Source: Candidatus Abyssobacteria bacterium SURF_5 (GTDB lineage Bacteria; Abyssobacteria; SURF-5). From it: a stretch of 31,086 bases of DNA. Positions 1,355 to 21,318 of the stretch are shown here, piece by piece. Under the pieces are notes generated by a model, which worked only from the letters and a program-made list of their open reading frames with translations, had not been told where the DNA came from and searched no databases. The position numbers were made by a program, and so were the translations under genes. Each line of letters starts with the position of its first letter. Within the stretch, counting starts at the first letter, position 1. The stretch is from assembly GCA_003598085.1 (NCBI GenBank), contig QZKU01000056.1, positions 1 to 31,086 of the forward strand, given 5' to 3'.

Positions 1355-2809
1355 TCAGCCGCCGAGGCATGGGTGTCGCGCCGCGGACGTCTCGTCAAGC
1401 CGTCTCACCTTGGTACGCCCGGGAGCACGGCGCAACTGGTCGGGATACTGCTCGGCCTCGACGGCAACTGTTTTGAAGGCCTCGATGAAGGCGTCGATGG
1501 TCTCTTTCGATTCAGTCTCAGTCGGCTCGATCATGATTGCGCCGTCCACCACCAGCGGGAAATAAACCGTCGGCGGATGAAACCCATAATCGATCAACCG
1601 CTTCACCATGTCGAGAGTGGTGACCTTGTGCTTCTTTTGCAGCTTGTCCGAGAACACGCATTCATGCATGCAGGGCCTATCGTACGCGAGGTGAAGCGTT
1701 CCCTTCAGACGTTCCTTGATGTAGTTCGCATTGAGTACGGCGAGCTCGCTGACACGCTTCAGATCGGCGCCCATGCTGAGAATATAGGCGTGCGCCCGCA
1801 CCATGATCGAGAAATTTCCGTAAAACGAGTGCAGCTTGCCGATGGAATCGGGAAAATCGCTCGAGAGCGCATACGATCCTTTGCGCTCGACCACGCGCGG
1901 CACGGGGAGAAACGGCTCGAGATGTTTCCTCACGCAAATGGGGCCGGCGCCGGGTCCGCCGCCTCCATGAGGAGTCGAGAATGTTTTGTGCAGATTCAGG
2001 TGCAATACGTCGACGCCGATTTCGCCCATCCGCACGATTCCCATGACGGCATTCATGTTCGCGCCGTCGCAATAGACGAGGCCGCCTTTGCGGTGTACGA
2101 TTTCGGCGATCTGCTTTATATGTTCCTCAAACAACCCAAGCGTATTCGGATTGGTTACCATGATGCCGGCGGTCTGATCGTCCATCGCTTCGGCAATTGA
2201 TTCGGGAGAGAGGATTCCGTTCTCGTTCGATTTTACTGGAATCGGCTCATACCCGCACAGCGCTGCGCTGGCGGGGTTCGTGCCGTGGGCGGTATCCGGA
2301 ATAATGATTTTTGTACGGCGGCCGCATTTCTTCTTGTGGTAGGCATGAATGAGCAGCATGCCGGCCAGTTCGCCTTGCGCCCCCGCCGCCGGCTGGAGAG
2401 AGACGGCCTGCATCCCGGTGATTTCTGCAAGAAGGCGTTCCAATTCCGACATCACCTTCAGCGCGCCTTGAGAAAGCGAATCCGGCGAAAGAGGATGCAA
2501 TTCGGCGAATCCTCTGAAGGCGGCCAATTTCTCATGCAGTTTGGGGTTGTACTTCATCGTGCATGAGCCAAGGGGATACATCCCGCTGTCCACTCCGAAA
2601 TTCCACTGGGAGAGGCGTGTGTAATGACGGACGATCTCGGGCTCGCTCAATTCCGGAAAATCGGGTGGGTCGCCCGCAACGGCATTATCTATTTGCCGGC
2701 GTTCGACGTCGCGCCGGGGCAGGTCCGCGGCGCACCGCCCGGGTTTTCCCATCTCCCATAACGGCGGCTCGTTGAAAACCAGGCCGGTGGCTCCGGGAAA
2801 AGTAGTCAT
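1355..2809 (-). CDS. gcvPB: Glycine dehydrogenase (decarboxylating) subunit 2
   Basis: This is the C-terminal half of the split P-protein of the glycine cleavage system, 484 residues, the usual size. With GcvPA it decarboxylates glycine using pyridoxal phosphate and passes the aminomethyl group to lipoyl-GcvH in the cytoplasm. The PLP-binding lysine is Lys275 in LNLHKTFSTPHGGGGPGAG, followed by the glycine-rich loop; PDTAHGTNPASAA (residues 171-183) and YPLGSCTMKYNPK (78-90) are further family signatures. Its ATG overlaps the gcvPA stop by 4 nt (ATGA, 2806-2809), so translation is probably coupled. The C-terminal 20 or so residues are arginine-rich and unlike the core. The split PA/PB form is typical of Gram-positives, archaea and many candidate phyla rather than enterobacteria. 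Confidence 0.97.
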   Translation of the reverse strand: MTTFPGATGLVFNEPPLWEMGKPGRCAADLPRRDVERRQIDNAVAGDPPDFPELSEPEIVRHYTRLSQWNFGVDSGMYPLGSCTMKYNPKLHEKLAAFRGFAELHPLSPDSLSQGALKVMSELERLLAEITGMQAVSLQPAAGAQGELAGMLLIHAYHKKKCGRRTKIIIPDTAHGTNPASAALCGYEPIPVKSNENGILSPESIAEAMDDQTAGIMVTNPNTLGLFEEHIKQIAEIVHRKGGLVYCDGANMNAVMGIVRMGEIGVDVLHLNLHKTFSTPHGGGGPGAGPICVRKHLEPFLPVPRVVERKGSYALSSDFPDSIGKLHSFYGNFSIMVRAHAYILSMGADLKRVSELAVLNANYIKERLKGTLHLAYDRPCMHECVFSDKLQKKHKVTTLDMVKRLIDYGFHPPTVYFPLVVDGAIMIEPTETESKETIDAFIEAFKTVAVEAEQYPDQLRRAPGRTKVRRLDETSAARHPCLGG

Positions 2810-4131
2810 CGTCCGACCTCCTCAGCGAGCGCATCCAGATCCGAGCGGGATTTCGTCTCTGTGACGCAGAGCAGGTGATGGTCCTTCAGTTCCGGATAAT
2901 AGGCATCGAGCGGGAGTCCGGCGAGCACTTTCCTTTCGAGAAGCCGGCGATAATCGCCAGGATTGGGGAAGCGCACGACAAATTCATTGAAAGTCGGGCC
3001 GGAGAAAGGAAGCTCGCACCCTTTCTCGCGCAGCCGGTCTTTGAGATATTCCGCCTTATCATGGTTCAACTGAGCCATTTCCCGGAAACCCGTTTTTCCG
3101 AGTGTAGCCATGTACATCGCCGCCGCCAGCGCACACAGACTGCTGTTGGTGCAAATGTTGGACGTTGCTTTTTGCCGGCGGATGTGCTGTTCGCGGGTGG
3201 CGAGCGTCAAGACATATCCGCCTCGCCCTTCCACATCCTGGGCGCGTCCGACGAGGCGTCCGGGCATGTTGCGAACGTACTGCATCTTTGAGGCAAATAT
3301 CCCCAGTCCCGGCCCTCCGAATGACTGCGGGATACCGAGGCTTTGTCCTTCGCCGCAAGCGATATCCGCGCCGTACTTACCGGGCGGTTTCAGGATTCCA
3401 TATGCGAGCGGCTCCGTAAAAGAGACGATCAACAGAGCGTCATGCGCTCTTGCCGCTTCGGCGGCGGAATCCAGGTCTTCGATCACGCCGAAGAAGTTGG
3501 GCGATTGAACGACCACAGCAGCAACTTCACCGGCTTGCTGAAGAGAAGAGTAGTCGGTGCGGCCGTCAGAAAGATGAGGAAGTTCGATCGCGCTGTAGCC
3601 CGTGGGCGCAAAATACGTCTGCGCCACTCTCCGATAATGAGGGTGAATCGACCGGGAAATCGCCACAGTTGGTTTCTTCGTGATTCGAATGGACATCAGC
3701 AACGCTTCGGCCAGCGAGGAGGCGCCGTCGTAGAGCGAGGCATTCGCCACTTCCATTTGCATCAGCCTGGCTGTGAGCGTTTGATATTCATAGATTGCCT
3801 GAAGAGTTCCCTGGCTGATCTCGGGTTGATATGGAGTGTAGGCGGTGTAGAATTCCGAACGAGAGAGCAGCTGCCTGTTTGATTCCGGGATGAAGTGGTC
3901 GTAGCTGCCCGCTCCAATGAAGGAGGAGAATCCTTGGGCGGCGGCGGTTGTATTGGAAAGGAGTTCGAAATAACCCTCGAGCTCCCACTCATTCAGCGGT
4001 TCGGGAAGCGTGAGCGGTCCGCGAAGGCGGCAGTCATCCGGTATCGGAGAGAACAGTTCTTCCAGCGAACGCACGCCGATAACTGCGAGCATGGCAGCTA
4101 CGTCGCTGTCGGTATGAGGCAAGTATCGCAT
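2806..4131 (-). CDS. gcvPA: Glycine dehydrogenase (decarboxylating) subunit 1
   Basis: The N-terminal half of the split P-protein, 441 residues, normal for the family. It opens with MRYLPHTDSDVAAMLAVIG, the standard GcvPA start, and has IGAGSYDHFIP (about residues 92-102), YTPYQPEISQGTLQAIYEYQ (115-134) and the FGGPGLGIFA loop. It pairs with GcvPB to form the PLP enzyme; the PLP lysine itself sits in GcvPB. The gene begins directly after the gcvH stop codon with no gap (4131/4132) and overlaps gcvPB at its end, so the two subunits should be made together. Confidence 0.97.
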   Translation of the reverse strand: MRYLPHTDSDVAAMLAVIGVRSLEELFSPIPDDCRLRGPLTLPEPLNEWELEGYFELLSNTTAAAQGFSSFIGAGSYDHFIPESNRQLLSRSEFYTAYTPYQPEISQGTLQAIYEYQTLTARLMQMEVANASLYDGASSLAEALLMSIRITKKPTVAISRSIHPHYRRVAQTYFAPTGYSAIELPHLSDGRTDYSSLQQAGEVAAVVVQSPNFFGVIEDLDSAAEAARAHDALLIVSFTEPLAYGILKPPGKYGADIACGEGQSLGIPQSFGGPGLGIFASKMQYVRNMPGRLVGRAQDVEGRGGYVLTLATREQHIRRQKATSNICTNSSLCALAAAMYMATLGKTGFREMAQLNHDKAEYLKDRLREKGCELPFSGPTFNEFVVRFPNPGDYRRLLERKVLAGLPLDAYYPELKDHHLLCVTETKSRSDLDALAEEVGR

Positions 4132-4536
4132 TTATTCCGTTCCCTCAAGCATCTTCCGATAATCGTCCTTCGTCATCAGGTCGTCATATTCTGACACATC
4201 GAGCGCCTTCACTTCTATTATCCATCCCCTGCCGTAGGGGTCTTGATTTATAGAACCGGGCGACTCCTCGAGGAGATTGTTGACGGCAACGACTGTTCCA
4301 CTGACGGGTGTCAGCATCTCGGAGGCCGCCTTTGTCGATTCTACAGTTCCGAATTCCTCCCCCTGATGGAGAATATCGCCGATCTCGGGCAGCTCAACGA
4401 AAGTGATATCCCCGAGCCGATCCTGGGCGTAATCTGAAATGCCGACTCGTATATGATTTCCCTCCAGGCGCGCCCATTCGTGATCGGTGGAATATCGGAC
4501 ATCGTCCGGCAGCTTCAACTCATCAAGTTCTTTCAT
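4132..4536 (-). CDS. gcvH: Glycine cleavage system H protein
   Basis: A 134-residue lipoyl carrier protein that shuttles the aminomethyl group from P- to T-protein and is reoxidised by lipoamide dehydrogenase. The lipoylation site is Lys69 in GTVESTKAASEMLTPVSG; the more common form reads ESVKAAS, so a threonine replaces the residue before the lysine. The N-terminal YSTDHEWARLEG and VGISDYAQDRLGDI segments are characteristic. GAGGAG lies just upstream of the ATG. It sits 11 nt after gcvT. No lipoamide dehydrogenase or lipoate ligase gene is in the window, so the L-protein must be supplied elsewhere. Confidence 0.97.
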   Translation of the reverse strand: MKELDELKLPDDVRYSTDHEWARLEGNHIRVGISDYAQDRLGDITFVELPEIGDILHQGEEFGTVESTKAASEMLTPVSGTVVAVNNLLEESPGSINQDPYGRGWIIEVKALDVSEYDDLMTKDDYRKMLEGTE

Positions 4537-4547
4537 TCGTTCTCCTC

Positions 4548-5822
4548 CTACTCTCCAAGGAAATGCTTCATGGGAAGCCGGGCGGTGCGGTCGGGTCGAA
4601 TGTCCTTAACTATCTCGACAGGAATTTCCCGCCGCTTGTCCCGTAAAACCACGTGAGTTCCGGGTTCCAGCCGGGAGCGCACTTTTGCAAAGCCGCAGCA
4701 CAAGCCCAGCGGATTGAAGTTTTGAGGTCTTTGGGGACTGGCGACGCTGCAGATGGCCCCGTTAACCCGGCCGATGGCCAGATCGGCGACACACGTCAGC
4801 GCGAGACCGATCTCATTTCCATCAGATCCGATACCGAGCGCCGGGTCGCCGATGGAGGCCTTACGCGGGTCGAACCCCACGAATGCAAGTGTATGATCGG
4901 ACGCCTCACGCAACTGCAGAACGATATCACCAATGAATTGTTTCGTAAACGTCAGCCCATCTTCCGCGAACGGCAGCGCGAACAGCCACGGATGATTGAT
5001 GTACGGCCATGAGCCGATATCTTGCCCGCTGAGCGGCAGGACGGCGCCCGCACGCAGAGAATCGCGGGCCGCAAGACCGCAGGGAAGAAGGCCGAATTCC
5101 TCGCCCGCCTCAAGAAGGGTTTCCCAAATTTCGAGCGCATCGGCCGGATTGACAAACAATTCGAACCCGAACTCGCCGGTATAGCCTGTACGCGAGAGCA
5201 AGATCTGTCGGGCGCGCGCGAGCCGGACCCCCGAAAAGCCGGCGGCTTTTTCATAAGTTCCCTTAAAGCTGAAATAGACCATACTGCGCAAAAGCGCCGG
5301 ACCATCCGCCAACACTTTTGCCAGGATGCGCGCTGAGTGCGGTCCCTGAAGGTCGATTTTCGCCATCTTTTCGGAAACGTCCGCAACGCCAGCAGACCGG
5401 GCGGCCGAATATCTTTGAAGATGATCGCCCACTGCCGCCGCCATTCCCGCATTCACAATCACAAGATAATCCTGCGAAGTGAGCTGATAGACAATGGCGT
5501 CATCTATGGTTTCGCCGCGTTCGTTCAAAAAGACGCCGTACACGCACCTGCCGGGAGTGAGCGGGGCTTTCCCGCCGCCCAGGCATCTTTCCAGATCCTT
5601 TGTGAAACACGACTGGAGCAGGTGGAAGGCGTCACGCCCGGTCACGCTGAGGGCGCCCATATGGCCTGTATCAAAAATACCGGCGGCGGTGATGACCGAC
5701 AGATGCTCCTTCTTGGCGCCGGATGCATACCACAGCGGCATATCCCAGCCATGGAATTTCGCTATGTTGGCGCCGTGCGCTGCATGCCACGGAAAGAGAG
5801 ATGTTCGTCTGTTCTCAGCCAT
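4548..5822 (-). CDS. gcvT: Aminomethyltransferase (T-protein)
   Basis: First gene of the glycine cleavage operon. T-protein releases ammonia from the aminomethyl-lipoyl arm and gives 5,10-methylene-tetrahydrofolate. Signatures: HAAHGANIAKFHGWDMPLWY near the start, GIFDTGHMGALSVTGRDA (about residues 48-65), the folate/acid loop ERGETIDDAIVYQL, and RTGYTGEFGFELF in the middle. At 424 residues it is longer than the common 360-370, with extra sequence in the C-terminal half including a cysteine pair (LGLCCGF), so some function outside the standard enzyme cannot be fully excluded. Operon position makes true T-protein by far the best reading. The ATG at 5822 follows AAAGGG about 14 nt upstream, a loose spacing. 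Confidence 0.93.
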   Translation of the reverse strand: MAENRRTSLFPWHAAHGANIAKFHGWDMPLWYASGAKKEHLSVITAAGIFDTGHMGALSVTGRDAFHLLQSCFTKDLERCLGGGKAPLTPGRCVYGVFLNERGETIDDAIVYQLTSQDYLVIVNAGMAAAVGDHLQRYSAARSAGVADVSEKMAKIDLQGPHSARILAKVLADGPALLRSMVYFSFKGTYEKAAGFSGVRLARARQILLSRTGYTGEFGFELFVNPADALEIWETLLEAGEEFGLLPCGLAARDSLRAGAVLPLSGQDIGSWPYINHPWLFALPFAEDGLTFTKQFIGDIVLQLREASDHTLAFVGFDPRKASIGDPALGIGSDGNEIGLALTCVADLAIGRVNGAICSVASPQRPQNFNPLGLCCGFAKVRSRLEPGTHVVLRDKRREIPVEIVKDIRPDRTARLPMKHFLGE

Positions 5823-7601: not shown

Positions 7602-7955
7602 TCAGCGCGGACGCCCGCCGCCGCCCCGTCTCGCTCCACCGGGCCCGCCCGGACGGTATCCCCCGCCTCGTGGGCCGCCGCCTCTCGGTCCTCCGCCCTC
7701 CCGTCGTCCTTCTGGACGAGGCCGGGCCTCGTTCACGTTCAGCGTTTGCCCCTTCAGGTCTTTGCCGTTCAGACCGTTAATTGCTTCGCGGGCTTCGGCG
7801 TCGGCTGGCATCTCGACAAACCCGAAGCCTCTCGATTCACCGCTGAATTTGTCGGTGATAATTTTGGCGGATGCAACCTGTCCGAATGCTGCAAAGGCCT
7901 CTCGCAAATCGTTTTCGGTTACTCCCCTTGCCAGATTTCCTACATAGATGTTCAT
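7602..7955 (-). CDS. RRM-domain RNA-binding protein with RGG-like tail
   Basis: A 117-residue protein with one RNA recognition motif (residues 1-80): RNP2 is IYVGNL (3-8) and RNP1 is RGFGFVEM (42-49), both with the RNA-stacking aromatics. The last 35 or so residues are nearly all Gly, Arg and Pro, a flexible RGG-type tail that binds RNA non-specifically. This resembles bacterial and cyanobacterial Rbp proteins, which are induced by cold and act as RNA chaperones. The start is the ATG at 7953-7955 because the Shine-Dalgarno GGAGGCG falls inside what would be the codons after the upstream ATG at 7967. It shares an apparent transcript with rpsU and has a leader of about 270 nt. Confidence 0.93.
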   Translation of the reverse strand: MNIYVGNLARGVTENDLREAFAAFGQVASAKIITDKFSGESRGFGFVEMPADAEAREAINGLNGKDLKGQTLNVNEARPRPEGRREGGGPRGGGPRGGGYRPGGPGGARRGGGGRPR

Positions 7956-8235
7956 TTGCGCCTCCATTCGCCAGGACGAGTTGATATTCCCGGTGTTCCT
8001 ATTCCAGGGGAGGACAAAAAGCCGATTCCGCCAATCCCCTTTTGCAAACTATGCTTCAACAGCGCCCGCGAGTAAAATGAATATTAAGTTTTTCGAAAGC
8101 TAAAGAAGGAGATCAGATTCTCGAAGTGAACGCTGTCAGGCTGGTCACCTGCGTTGGTGCCACACTTAGAGAGCGCAATCTGGCCTGGCTTGCACATTGC
8201 CGAAACAGTAAAACATATCGCTTTAGCTTCAGTAT

Positions 8236-11424: not shown

Positions 11425-11441
11425 TTGGCACCGTAATTGCT
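11425..11441 (+). promoter_or_regulatory. Sigma54 (RpoN) promoter
   Basis: TTGGCACcgtaaTTGCT matches the -24/-12 consensus TGGCAC-N5-TTGC exactly. It lies about 90 nt before the GTG at 11530, with predicted initiation near 11452. Sigma54 promoters need an enhancer-binding ATPase; an imperfect dyad GTGTC-N13-GACAC at 11370-11392 could contribute, but it is closer than typical activator sites. The gap 11175-11529 holds nothing else I can support. Confidence 0.8.
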
Positions 11442-11529
11442 CATTCCATCGATGACCGTGCGTCCACCGTCCACTCATCTACCCCTGCAGGAGCAAGATG
11501 CTGATAGACAAAGGGGAAAGGAAATTGCT

Positions 11530-12975
11530 GTGAATACGAGGCTGGGGGATTTCCTCGTTGAACACTCCATTATCACTCACGAGGAGTTGGAGAAAGCGCT
11601 TGCCCGTCAAAAGGAAAGCCTGAAGCCTCTCGGCGAGGTTCTGCTCGAACTGAGGATACTTGATGAGGCCCGGCTGGCGCACGCGCTGGCCGACCAACTG
11701 AGCATCTCGTATGTTGATCTGTTTACTACTCCGCTTCAGCCGCAGGCGATCGACCTCATTCCGGAGCACCTGGCTCGAAAATACAAGTGTATTCCGATCC
11801 GAATAAACGGCGGGTTTCTCGACGTTGCGATGTGCGATCCGATGGACCTTGACGCTCTGGAGGAACTGGCAAAAGCGGCCAAGCTGGAAATCAATCCCTT
11901 GATTTCCACGCGAGCCGACATCCTGGAATCGATCGAGCTGCAGTATTTCACCCGGAATTATCGTGCATCGCACGCGCAGAAGCTGGAAAACGAGATCCGG
12001 AAAGAGATCGATGACGAGAAGACAAAAGAGACGCGCATCTTTGCAATAGTCTCGAACAAAGGAGGCGTCGGCAAGACGCATACCGCGGTTAACCTCGCCT
12101 GCTCCCTGGCTTCCCTGAAGGTGAAAACGCTGCTCATCGATCTGGATCTGGGAAACGCTAACGTGGGAGTCAAACTGGGCATCCATCCGAAATACACGCT
12201 TATGGATTTTTTGAACAAAGAGAAGGATATCTTTGAGCTTGTTACCGGCACCGATTACGGGTTTGACTTCATCGGCGGGCAGTCGGGCGAATACAAATTG
12301 GCGAACCTGGCTTACGTGCAGAAGTTGAAGTTCATTCGCAACTTTCAGGAAGTCAGCAAGAACTATGATGTCGTCGTATTCGATCTTGGCGCGGGAATCG
12401 ACGACAGCGTTCTCGATTTCGCGCTCGCGGCGAATGAGGTCATTATCTTGACAACTCCGCAGGACATCGTTTCCGGATATGCCTGCGTGAAGGCATGCTA
12501 TTTCCGATTCAAAGATATCGAGACCAGGCTCGAAAAGAAAATGAAGAATTACCAGATGAAAACGGAGTTCTCGCCCAGGTTCATTATCAATCAGGTCGAG
12601 TCCGTGGAGATGGGACAGAAGGTTTTTGACAAAATCAATGCGACGGCCCAGAAGCATTTCAGGAATGGCAATGGGAGCCAGTTCAAGCTGGATATGGGGC
12701 TTCTGAGTTTCGTGCCCTACGACCGCGAGATGTTCCGAGAGGCCGAAAAAAGAAGGAAACCATATAGCATCGCTTTTCCCGACCGGCCGGCATCAAAATG
12801 TATCCGCCACATCGCCAGTGAGCTGCTGAAGCCGCCGTCTCTACGCGAAGCCATCCCTGCCGGCGGATTGAAACCGCGCTCCGCCACACAAAAACAGGAA
12901 GTTCCCTCGAACAACAATCACTCGCCGAAGAAGAGTTTCCAGCGGTTCGTCGAGATTCTTAAGATGAGATTCTAG
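11530..12975 (+). CDS. MshEN domain-MinD/FlhG-like ATPase fusion
   Basis: About 481 residues. Residues 2-140 form an MshEN (GspE/PilB N-terminal) domain: RLGDFLVEHSIITHEELEKAL, then LGEVLLELRILDEARLAHALADQL and the second repeat; MshEN domains can bind cyclic di-GMP. After a charged linker comes a SIMIBI ATPase with deviant Walker A KGGVGKT (177-183), LLIDLDLGNANVGVKLG (Walker A' region) and GGQSG, closest to FlhG/YlxH-type MinD proteins. The C-terminus KKSFQRFVEILKMRF could form an amphipathic membrane-binding helix, as in MinD. The start is GTG at 11530 with AAAGGAAA upstream; longer versions would begin inside the sigma54 -12 element. The sigma54 promoter suggests a motility, pilus, secretion or envelope role. 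It is not a GspE/PilB motor, since no such ATPase domain follows. Confidence 0.85.
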   Translation: MNTRLGDFLVEHSIITHEELEKALARQKESLKPLGEVLLELRILDEARLAHALADQLSISYVDLFTTPLQPQAIDLIPEHLARKYKCIPIRINGGFLDVAMCDPMDLDALEELAKAAKLEINPLISTRADILESIELQYFTRNYRASHAQKLENEIRKEIDDEKTKETRIFAIVSNKGGVGKTHTAVNLACSLASLKVKTLLIDLDLGNANVGVKLGIHPKYTLMDFLNKEKDIFELVTGTDYGFDFIGGQSGEYKLANLAYVQKLKFIRNFQEVSKNYDVVVFDLGAGIDDSVLDFALAANEVIILTTPQDIVSGYACVKACYFRFKDIETRLEKKMKNYQMKTEFSPRFIINQVESVEMGQKVFDKINATAQKHFRNGNGSQFKLDMGLLSFVPYDREMFREAEKRRKPYSIAFPDRPASKCIRHIASELLKPPSLREAIPAGGLKPRSATQKQEVPSNNNHSPKKSFQRFVEILKMRF

Positions 12976-18607: not shown

Positions 18608-18650
18608 GCGGCAGCTTTCTTCATCTTCCTTCTTTACTGGGAGAATGCAC

Positions 18651-19898
18651 ATGGGCCAGACAATTGCCGAAAAAATTTTTTCTACGAAGGTCGGGCGACA
18701 GGTTTCGGCGGGCGAATATGTTGTGGCGCCAGTCGATTGTGCGATGCTGCATGAAGGTTTCGCGATGAGTTGGCTCCAGCTCATGGGGGCGGGCGTCAGT
18801 GAGATTTGGGATCCGCGCAAAGTGGTGGTTCTGTTCGATCATTACGTTCCGGCGCCGACCGAACGACTGGCCACCGCCCATATGATGATCAGAAATGCCG
18901 TCAAGGACGCCGGGATTCAAGCGTTTTATGGTGAGCGGGAGGGCATCTGCCACCAAGTCATGATGGAGCAAGGCCATGTTCGCCCGGGCGACCTTATTGT
19001 CGGCACCGATTCTCATACCTGCACGTATGGCGCTCTCGCGGCTGCCGGAACCGGCCTGGGCACGACGGAGATGGCGTACGTGCTCGCTCGCGGCGAGTTA
19101 TGGTTTCTGGTTCCCGAGACCGTGCGACTTCGGCTGGAAGGGGAGCTTCCGCGCGCAGTATTTGCGAAAGACGCCATTTTAAGCATTGCCGGCACGTTCG
19201 GGACCGAGGTGGCGCAGTATAAAGCGATCGAATTCGTGGGTTCCGGCGCGGCCTCAATCGACATTGAAGGGCGCATGACGATCAGCAACATGGCGGTTGA
19301 AATAGGGGCCAAATTCGGCTTTTTCGATGCTGATGATAAAACATTGTCTTTTCTTTCCGGGCGAGTCGAGGGCGCTGGCAAGCTTTCGGCCGATGCCGAT
19401 GCGAAATATGCTGCAACGCACGAAATCGATCTGGCCGAACTTGAGCCGCAGGTAGCGTGCCCGCATGCTGTGGATAATGTCAAGCCGGTGGCCAAATTGA
19501 AGGGCCTGCCGATCCAGCAGGCGATTTTGGGTTCGTGCACGAACGGTCGCTACAGCGATTTGAAGACGGCCGCGCGGATACTGGAAGGAAAGACGATTCC
19601 CCCTTCCGTTCGTCTTTATGTATATCCGGCCTCGCGCCAAGTGTACCTGCAGGCGGTGATGGAGGGTGTGGTCGAGATATTTTTGAAGGCAGGGGCGATC
19701 ATGTGTAACCCGAGCTGCGGTCCGTGCTTCGGCGCACACACCGGTTTGCTTGCGCCGGGTGAAGTCTGCGTCTCTTCAACGAATCGCAACTTCAAGGGCC
19801 GCATGGGAAGCGCGGAGGCGGAAGTCTATCTGGCATCTCCGGCCACCGTGGCGGCTTCGGCTGTCCGCGGCGAGATCGCCGACCCGCGCGAGGAGTAG
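18651..19898 (+). CDS. Aconitase-superfamily hydratase, large subunit (LeuC/DmdA-like)
   Basis: About 415 residues, the length of the short bacterial/archaeal LeuC type. It holds the 4Fe-4S cluster: Cys296 (GSCTNGRYSDL), Cys356 and Cys359 (NPSCGPCFGAHTG), with GTDSHTCTYGALAAAGTGLG in the N-terminal half. The family reversibly dehydrates and rehydrates 3-isopropylmalate, homoaconitate, methylmalate or 2,3-dimethylmalate. ATG at 18651 is favoured over the one at 18645, since GGGAG lies 7 nt upstream of the former and only 1 nt from the latter. The small subunit follows after 3 nt and an isocitrate-lyase-family gene after that. No leuA or leuB is nearby, so a non-leucine substrate is plausible. 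Substrate assignment is inference. Confidence 0.88.
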   Translation: MGQTIAEKIFSTKVGRQVSAGEYVVAPVDCAMLHEGFAMSWLQLMGAGVSEIWDPRKVVVLFDHYVPAPTERLATAHMMIRNAVKDAGIQAFYGEREGICHQVMMEQGHVRPGDLIVGTDSHTCTYGALAAAGTGLGTTEMAYVLARGELWFLVPETVRLRLEGELPRAVFAKDAILSIAGTFGTEVAQYKAIEFVGSGAASIDIEGRMTISNMAVEIGAKFGFFDADDKTLSFLSGRVEGAGKLSADADAKYAATHEIDLAELEPQVACPHAVDNVKPVAKLKGLPIQQAILGSCTNGRYSDLKTAARILEGKTIPPSVRLYVYPASRQVYLQAVMEGVVEIFLKAGAIMCNPSCGPCFGAHTGLLAPGEVCVSSTNRNFKGRMGSAEAEVYLASPATVAASAVRGEIADPREE

Positions 19899-19901
19899 AA
19901 C

Positions 19902-20393
19902 ATGGAGCGATTGAAAATAAGAGGAAAAACGTGGACCTTCGGGGACAACGTGGACACAGATCAAATCACTCCCAGCCAGTACATGGACCTTCCGGTCGAA
20001 GAGATGAGCCGGCATGTGCTCGAGCCGGTCGATCCCGATTTTGCCAAGAAGTTTCAGCCGGGCGAAATCATTGTCGGCGGTTCCAACTTCGGCTGTGGAT
20101 CCAGCAGGGAGACGGCTCCCGAGGCATTGAAGTACATTGGAGTTGCAGCGGTAGTCGCGGAGAATTTCGGCCGCATCTTCTTCAGAAACTCGATAGCCAT
20201 CGGGCTGCCGGTGCTTGTTTGTCCACATGTTTCCCGTGAAATCACGCAGGGAGACGAGATCGAAATCGATCTCGATGCGGCGCAGGTGACTATTCTCAAG
20301 AACAAGAAGACGCTGCCCGGGCTCCCCCTCAATGCCATGATGCTGACCTCGCTCAAAAAAGGCGGCATTATGAAATTGTTAGTGGAAATATGA
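19902..20393 (+). CDS. Aconitase-superfamily hydratase, small subunit (LeuD/DmdB-like)
   Basis: A 163-residue swivelling domain subunit that closes the active site of the large subunit encoded 3 nt upstream. Family signatures: GDNVDTDQITPSQYMDL (about residues 12-28), GGSNFGCGSSRETAPEALKYIG (57-78) and AENFGRIFFRNSIAIGLPVL. The length fits the archaeal/short LeuD type. The substrate-specificity loop directly after NVDTDQI reads TPSQYMD, which differs from the YLK/YLR seen in many isopropylmalate isomerases. Operon position makes it the partner of the LeuC-like gene. Confidence 0.9.
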   Translation: MERLKIRGKTWTFGDNVDTDQITPSQYMDLPVEEMSRHVLEPVDPDFAKKFQPGEIIVGGSNFGCGSSRETAPEALKYIGVAAVVAENFGRIFFRNSIAIGLPVLVCPHVSREITQGDEIEIDLDAAQVTILKNKKTLPGLPLNAMMLTSLKKGGIMKLLVEI

Positions 20394-20399
20394 TCGTTT

Positions 20400-20450
20400 C
20401 CACCATCTTTTTTCCGAAGCATAGAGCCTGTCCGATTGCGGAAAAGGTGG
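20400..20450 (+). promoter_or_regulatory. Intercistronic stem-loop covering the lyase ribosome-binding site
   Basis: TTTTCCG (20410-20416) pairs with CGGAAAA (20439-20445), and CCACC (20400-20404) pairs with GGTGG (20446-20450). The 3' arms contain GGAAAAGGTGGG, the Shine-Dalgarno region of the next gene (ATG at 20455), so folding could lower its translation relative to the hydratase. RNA structure is inferred, not tested. Confidence 0.4.
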
Positions 20451-20454
20451 GACC

Positions 20455-21318
20455 ATGAGCCAAGGGAAAAAACTGAAAGAACTGCTCGCTTGCAAAAAGA
20501 TCATTGTTGCGCCGGGCGCCTATGATGCGCTGACTGCAAAGATGATCGAGGGCGCCGGATTTGAAGCCGTCTATATGACAGGTTTTGGAACGGCGGCTTC
20601 GATGCTGGGTCTGCCCGACATCGGCCTGCTTACCATGAGCGAGATGCTGCAAAACGTCCGCGCTATAGCCGGCGCGGTCGATATCCCGCTTATCGCCGAC
20701 GCCGACACCGGCTACGGAAATCCGGTGAACGTCATTCGGACCGTCCGGGAATACGAGAAGGCCGGGGCCGCCGCCCTTCATATCGAGGACCAGATCTGGC
20801 CGAAACGCTGCGGTCATATGACCGGGAAACAGCTGATTCCCAAAGAAGAGATGACGTCCAAACTGCGGGCCGCAGTTGATGCGAGGAGCACGGACGATTT
20901 CCTGATTATTGTGCGTACCGATGCGCTTGCAGTCGAGGGATGGGACGCAACGGTCGAGCGGGCGAATGCATATGTGGAGACGGGCGTGGATGTGCTTTTC
21001 GTGGAAGCGCCCGAGACCGAAGAGCAAATGGAGCTCATCCCGAAGTTGTTTCCCGTGCCCTGCTTGATCAATATGGCGCCTCGAACGCCCGCGCTGCCGG
21101 TGGAACGCCTCGAGGAAATGGGGTTTGCCGTCGCTATCTTTCCCGCCGTCTGTCTTGCGGCAACGATTCAGGCGAATATCGACGCGCTGAAGCAATTGAA
21201 AGAGATCGGCCGACCCGCTGCCTTTGGCGACATCCTGGCGGCCTTCATGCAGTTTAATCAGTTCATCGGCGTGCCCCGCTACAGCGAACTGGAAGAGAAG
21301 TATAAAGCGGACATTTGA
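20455..21318 (+). CDS. Isocitrate lyase/PEP mutase-family lyase (Dml/PrpB-like)
   Basis: A 287-residue TIM-barrel enzyme of the isocitrate lyase/PEP mutase superfamily, cytoplasmic and Mg2+-dependent. Key signatures are the metal-binding DADTGYGN (82-89), HIEDQ (109-113) and the catalytic loop KRCGH (117-121), whose Cys119 is the general base in methylisocitrate and dimethylmalate lyases. PEP mutases and oxaloacetate hydrolases lack this full motif, so a C-C lyase releasing pyruvate is expected. It follows the hydratase subunits. In Eubacterium barkeri, dimethylmaleate hydratase DmdAB and 2,3-dimethylmalate lyase Dml are the same three families, giving propionate and pyruvate; 2-methylisocitrate cleavage is the main alternative, but no methylcitrate synthase is present. 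Confidence 0.88.
   Translation: MSQGKKLKELLACKKIIVAPGAYDALTAKMIEGAGFEAVYMTGFGTAASMLGLPDIGLLTMSEMLQNVRAIAGAVDIPLIADADTGYGNPVNVIRTVREYEKAGAAALHIEDQIWPKRCGHMTGKQLIPKEEMTSKLRAAVDARSTDDFLIIVRTDALAVEGWDATVERANAYVETGVDVLFVEAPETEEQMELIPKLFPVPCLINMAPRTPALPVERLEEMGFAVAIFPAVCLAATIQANIDALKQLKEIGRPAAFGDILAAFMQFNQFIGVPRYSELEEKYKADI

Follow-up and report, generated by a model that had tools for sequence, protein, structure and literature searches.

A sigma54-associated fusion of an MshEN domain with an FlhG-like ATPase as a candidate c-di-GMP-responsive switch for type IV pili and/or flagella

In the genome of Candidatus Abyssobacteria bacterium SURF_5 (G000; 5.1 Mb, 98% complete) we found a gene that joins a complete MshEN module to an FlhG/FleN-like MinD-type ATPase. 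Judged from its sequence, we read the product as a c-di-GMP-responsive, membrane-cycling FlhG-like switch for type IV pili and/or flagella, with a probability of about one half. Each part of the protein belongs to a known family. An earlier note on this DNA knew of no described system with the same architecture; likewise, our search of the open-access literature for characterised homologues found no description of an MshEN-MinD/FlhG fusion (in one search the matches were mostly to the unrelated word 'mind').

The fusion gene and its distribution

The gene runs from a GTG at position 11530 to position 12975 on the forward strand of the window, which is the whole stretch of 31,086 nucleotides that was analysed. 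It encodes 481 amino acids, as supported by its translation, its domain matches and an orthologue that is 72% identical over the full length. This orthologue (locus L001) lies in a genome of the same family and another genus (G001), evidently a Candidatus Poribacteria MAG (contig JACRIR010000075.1). Its start codon is the same (GTG-AAC-ACG, NTRLGDF), and the alignment begins exactly there, while the upstream frame diverges, so we placed the coding start at GTG 11530. The longer frame from TTG 11437, proposed earlier as the coding region, was rejected, since it begins inside the sigma54 promoter and is not conserved in the orthologue. Upstream of the start, the DNAs of the two orthologues share little. 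In the window, the fusion gene is flanked by purA (adenylosuccinate synthetase) and a gene for an EamA transporter; no partner gene adjoins the fusion gene there, and no neighbour is common to the two loci, so gene neighbourhood was dropped as a functional clue. The fusion gene thus stands alone in unrelated neighbourhoods, and its neighbours give no pointer to an envelope machine. The window also holds, on the reverse strand, a full operon for glycine cleavage, in which the P protein is split (GcvT, GcvH, GcvP1, GcvP2; 1355-5822), and a gene for a small RRM-type RNA-binding protein of 121 amino acids (7602-7967). On the forward strand (18645-21318), genes for aconitase-type large and small subunits precede one of the PEP mutase/isocitrate lyase family.

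The domain search for MshEN-MinD fusions and their neighbours that had been suggested earlier returned this one full-length orthologue among the searched genomes. No fusion was found in a third genus of the same family (G002), nor in 386 diverse genomes (about 255 families) or 195 genomes of one MshEN-rich phylum, both searched with strict E-values that may overlook a remote fusion if its two domains are weak. A scan of 84,980 species genomes, which detects close relatives only, returned one relative; plasmids gave ATPase-only matches and no fusion, and viral contigs gave no relative of the fusion. An idle or degenerate flhG paralogue, fused by chance and lacking a selected function, would suit a fusion known from only two genomes, as well as its degenerate enhancer helix (see below). 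Yet 72% identity is maintained along 481 residues, catalytic residues, tail and promoter are kept in two genera, and one linker has diverged to 21% identity while the rest was kept. We therefore consider such an origin very improbable.

Two further MshEN fusions were observed in the same genome. On contig 68, a protein of 468 amino acids (L044:9899-11305, reverse strand) joins MshEN to a DnaA-type ATPase domain; its gene adjoins the MshEN-pilB gene of a pilB-pilT-pilS-pilR-pilC cluster. This protein has degenerate c-di-GMP motifs (6/11 and 7/11). Similar-sized genes adjoin MshEN ATPases in G001 (C14) and G002 (C62), and this unusual fusion is perhaps more widely conserved than the FlhG-like one. 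On contig 16, an MshEN-HDOD fusion (L048:6678-7988) in one reading frame has an N-terminal part that matches the MshEN of the FlhG-like fusion and a C-terminal part that matches the HDOD protein of the window. Judged by its FlhG-like, DnaA-type and HDOD partners, this lineage uses MshEN as a mobile module, which makes one more combination less surprising.

The MshEN module and its c-di-GMP motifs

The MshEN domain that the earlier note had recognised occupies residues 4–136 of the fusion; the module is complete, having two c-di-GMP motifs of 24 residues each and a 5-residue spacer. The N-subdomain (residues 4-56; 11539..11697, forward strand) carries motif I RLGDFLVEHSIITHEELEKALARQ, the spacer and motif II PLGEVLLELRILDEARLAHALADQ, and matches the NCBIfam MshE-related c-di-GMP-binding domain NF053729 with 59.4 bits against a cut-off of 38. 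The C-subdomain (residues 57-140; 11698..11949, forward strand) matches PF05157 MshEN at residues 58-136 with 63.5 bits against a cut-off of 23.1. The best solved relatives of residues 3-146 are PilF, MshE and PilB. The whole module, with its two motifs, spacer and C-subdomain, is thus shared with MshE, PilB, PilF and GspE, whereas the output differs, being a T2SSE hexameric ATPase in those proteins and a MinD-type ATPase in the fusion. This motif layout is published, and such motifs bind c-di-GMP with high affinity (PMC5013675).

When the motif residues were compared, 19 of the 22 consensus positions were kept in the fusion (10+9) and 20 in the orthologue (11+9). This places the fusion among the best-kept MshENs in the comparison; other MshENs of the two genomes mostly retain fewer consensus positions. 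R/K/L1, L2, G3, L17, L21 and Q24 are retained in both motifs, except for a Pro at position 1 of motif II, and the residue types that contact guanine or phosphate (L2, G3, L17, L21, Q24) are kept in both motifs of both orthologues. The alignment check proposed earlier for c-di-GMP-binding residues thus found almost all of them. The turn glycine at motif position 10 (G18/G47 of MshE) is absent, with Ser in motif I and Arg in motif II of the fusion; the orthologue has Gly and Lys, respectively. Several PilB-type MshENs also lack this glycine. It has been shown that PilF binds c-di-GMP with Lys/Leu instead of Arg at motif position 1, and that its c-di-GMP-binding domain GSPII-C has a Pro at the start of motif II (PMC11731258). 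Since the motif residues are kept and position 1 is tolerant, as PilF illustrates, c-di-GMP binding by the fusion is likely, and the six GGDEF proteins of the genome can supply the ligand. The replaced turn glycines could nevertheless make binding weak or abolish it. An AlphaFold2 model built from two sequences (pLDDT 36) was usable only for four helices of the MshEN N-subdomain, at modest confidence.

The same comparison bears on a c-di-GMP-independent function, in which MshEN would imitate the N-terminus of PilB/GspE and fasten the MinD-type ATPase to a pilus or secretion platform as a docking module. The C-subdomain is the best-conserved region between the orthologues (81% identity against 72% in the motif-bearing half), which suits a protein interface. 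The turn glycines are replaced, and XpsE/GspE of Xanthomonas lost c-di-GMP binding, as stated in PMC5013675. Docking alone, however, needs none of the contacting residue types that both orthologues keep, and we regard it as rather unlikely.

An FlhG-like side branch with a conserved tail

The ATPase part (residues 169-436; 12034..12837, forward strand) contains a deviant Walker A (KGGVGK) and the segments DLDLGNANV and DLGAGID, and matches AAA_31 with 62.5 bits against a cut-off of 27. Walker A K177/K182, D204, D206 and D285, the catalytic and switch residues, are invariant across the ATPase alignment set. FleN and FlhG are the closest solved relatives of residues 167-432 (E 8e-29 to 2e-23; 8e-29 for FleN 5j1j and 1.5e-24 for GtFlhG 4rz2), followed by archaeal MinD (E 1e-10), and the MinD equivalog cut-off is missed (61.8 bits against 212.9). 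With matches above cut-off and solved relatives for each part, the fusion of MshEN to a MinD-type ATPase in one protein was borne out.

The two domains are connected by a linker helix (residues 141-168; 11950..12033, forward strand). Comparison with the FlhGs of the host and other genomes placed the sequence SHAQKLE where FlhG has its enhancer helix DQAxxLR, which provides the co-catalytic Gln for FlhF (PMC12826062). The orthologue has SHAQQLE and the host's own FlhG DQAQKLR, and the FlhF-activating Gln is missing in both the fusion and the orthologue. A canonical flhA-flhF-flhG operon, with flhG directly after flhF, was found on contig 62, while the fusion gene is not next to flhF. The fusion is therefore not the true flagellar FlhG of the genome but an extra paralogue, which calls for a second role.

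In a tree of 32 ATPase domains, in which outgroup sampling is thin, the fusion grouped with two tandem FlhG-like proteins of another genome (G111) with support of 100/98, apart from the canonical FlhGs. These tandem ATPases (L190:8070-10220), the sister clade of the fusion ATPase, lack both the enhancer helix and MshEN. Each has a GFW-type amphipathic stretch near its C-terminus, and their genes lie between unrelated ones for a 2-hydroxyacid dehydrogenase and an RF3-like protein. The separate clade, the changed enhancer helix and the canonical flhG elsewhere indicate that, by sequence, the fusion is an FlhG-like side branch, additional to the flagellar FlhG. The earlier description as an FlhG-like ATPase thus held as far as the nearest solved structures go, but enhancer helix and flhF linkage are lacking and the clade is its own. 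Deviant Walker A, switch residues and sigma54 context are shared with FlhG/FleN (YlxH), as may be the C-terminal membrane-targeting tail; from FlhG/FleN the fusion differs by the MshEN in front, SHAQKLE without the co-catalytic Gln, its distance from flhF and its clade.

The last 16 residues form a conserved, probably amphipathic tail, PKKSFQRFVEILKMRF (residues 466-481; 12925..12972, forward strand). It is 75% identical to PKSSLRRFVEILKMKF of the orthologue, while the preceding linker is only 21% identical. The C-terminal membrane helix suggested earlier was ruled out, as the Kyte-Doolittle mean over 19 residues reaches at best -0.78 in the tail. A helix at 467-480 appears at low confidence in the AlphaFold2 model. 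Based on its position, its conservation and what is known of the family, the tail is a candidate membrane-targeting sequence like that of MinD/FlhG; its hydrophobic moment is not above that of shuffled tails (p 0.17-0.30).

Two known systems resemble this arrangement. TadZ/CpaE of Tad pili combines a sensor-like N-terminal domain with a MinD-type ATPase that places the pilus machine, but this domain is receiver-like, where the fusion has MshEN. The CpaE-type model TIGR03815 matched the fusion weakly (26 bits against 154). In cellulose secretion, the c-di-GMP sensor BcsE partners the MinD/SIMIBI NTPase BcsQ(R) on a membrane machine (PMC7439463). Unlike the fusion, this system keeps sensor and NTPase as separate proteins, with a degenerate REC-GGDEF instead of MshEN as the sensor, and BcsQ belongs to another SIMIBI branch.

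Sigma54 regulon and proposed function

A sigma54 (-24/-12) promoter, TGGCACCGTAATTGC, was found at 11426..11440 on the forward strand, from which transcription is expected to start near 11452, giving a 5' leader of about 78 nt. It fits the -24/-12 element (GG-N10-GC, TGGCAY-N5-TTGC) and is the sole exact TGGCAC-N5-TTGC in the window, where 0.08 were expected, and 7 of 100 shuffles had one or more. A counterpart, TGGCATTCTTATTGC, lies at position 7859 of L001, 142 bases before the start of the orthologue, so the site is kept in two genera although the gene order differs. We estimate the odds of a random match there, on the right strand within about 400 bases, at near 0.0025, based on the rate in G001, which has 67 sites over both strands of its 5.5 Mb. 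No sigma70-like site was found nearby on the same strand. The pattern TGGCAYN5TTGC occurs 63 times in G000 and 67 times in G001, compared to 14 and 12 for its mirror control; this is an approximately 5-fold excess, and by these counts about one fifth of single sites may be chance. The genome encodes rpoN and 33 enhancer-binding proteins, both of which the earlier note had asked to be looked for. Together with the promoter it had recognised, now seen to be unique in the window and kept at the orthologue, these data make sigma54 dependence of the fusion gene well supported.

About 30 of the G000 sites lie upstream of a protein that matches one downstream of a G001 site. Among the conserved targets that were identified are flagellar rod proteins, PilM, two PilT, a PilB-like MshEN ATPase, a polysaccharide exporter and a T2SSG-like protein, as well as ClpB, DnaK, GroES and sensor kinases. 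In both genomes the flagellar site precedes flgB, at a distance of about 3 kb from fliG, and the pil cluster of G000 is the one on contig 68. Co-expression of the fusion with pilus and flagellar genes is therefore supported by these predicted sites, and it is this regulon, not the neighbour genes, that links the fusion to pili and flagella. Co-regulation does not name the target, since chaperone and sensor-kinase genes are also included. The consensus sites close upstream of clpB, dnaK and groES (L113, L069 and L099 in G000; L179, L074 and L173 in G001) suggest that core chaperones of the lineage are under sigma54 control. Another site lies 78 bases upstream of a gene on contig 89 (L112:67-2511) whose 815-aa product unites an acyltransferase and an NAD-dependent glycerol-3-phosphate dehydrogenase; a site is likewise present for the related downstream frame of G001.

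Membership in a sigma54 regulon and the many enhancer-binding proteins of the genome would also fit a c-di-GMP-gated antiactivator that binds such a protein, as FleN does FleQ, and tunes sigma54-dependent motility transcription, possibly including its own. FleN is the nearest solved relative, and FlhG/FleN acts on FlrA/FleQ, but FleN-FleQ pairs have been described from monotrichous flagellates only (PMC12826062). Moreover, no FleQ-like partner is adjacent, and no inverted repeat that could serve as an activator-binding site is common to the upstream regions of the two orthologues. We consider this function improbable.

For the favoured c-di-GMP-responsive, membrane-cycling switch, we propose that in an extra FlhG-type ATPase the FlhF-activating N-terminal helix was superseded by a c-di-GMP receptor domain. 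ATP would dimerise the FlhG-like part and press its amphipathic tail against the inner membrane, from which hydrolysis would release it. Binding of c-di-GMP between the two MshEN motifs would change the orientation of the MshEN subdomains, as it does in PilF (PMC11731258). The linker helix would relay this change to the ATPase dimer, shifting its membrane residence or its partner. Expressed under sigma54 along with pilus and flagellar genes, the protein may set the number, place or activity of pili or flagella according to c-di-GMP. The spatial regulator reading a second messenger, as first proposed, is in our view plausible. Somewhat more tentative is the claim that this would be the first positioning ATPase of the MinD/FlhG type to carry a c-di-GMP receptor of its own, through which the second messenger directly gates a membrane cycle for placing or counting pili or flagella.

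Whether a cell swims or lives on a surface is governed by c-di-GMP, and MinD-type ATPases determine the number and location of its machines. The link between the two usually runs through transcription factors or partner proteins, such as FleQ/FleN and BcsE/BcsQ. If our reading is true, sensor and positioning ATPase are combined in one polypeptide, and their coupling is testable with one purified protein. The MshEN partners named in the text of PMC5013675, the defining paper, are REC, HD-GYP, CheA, CheX, cyclase and kinase; to these outputs the fusion would add a MinD-type ATPase, which is absent from that list.
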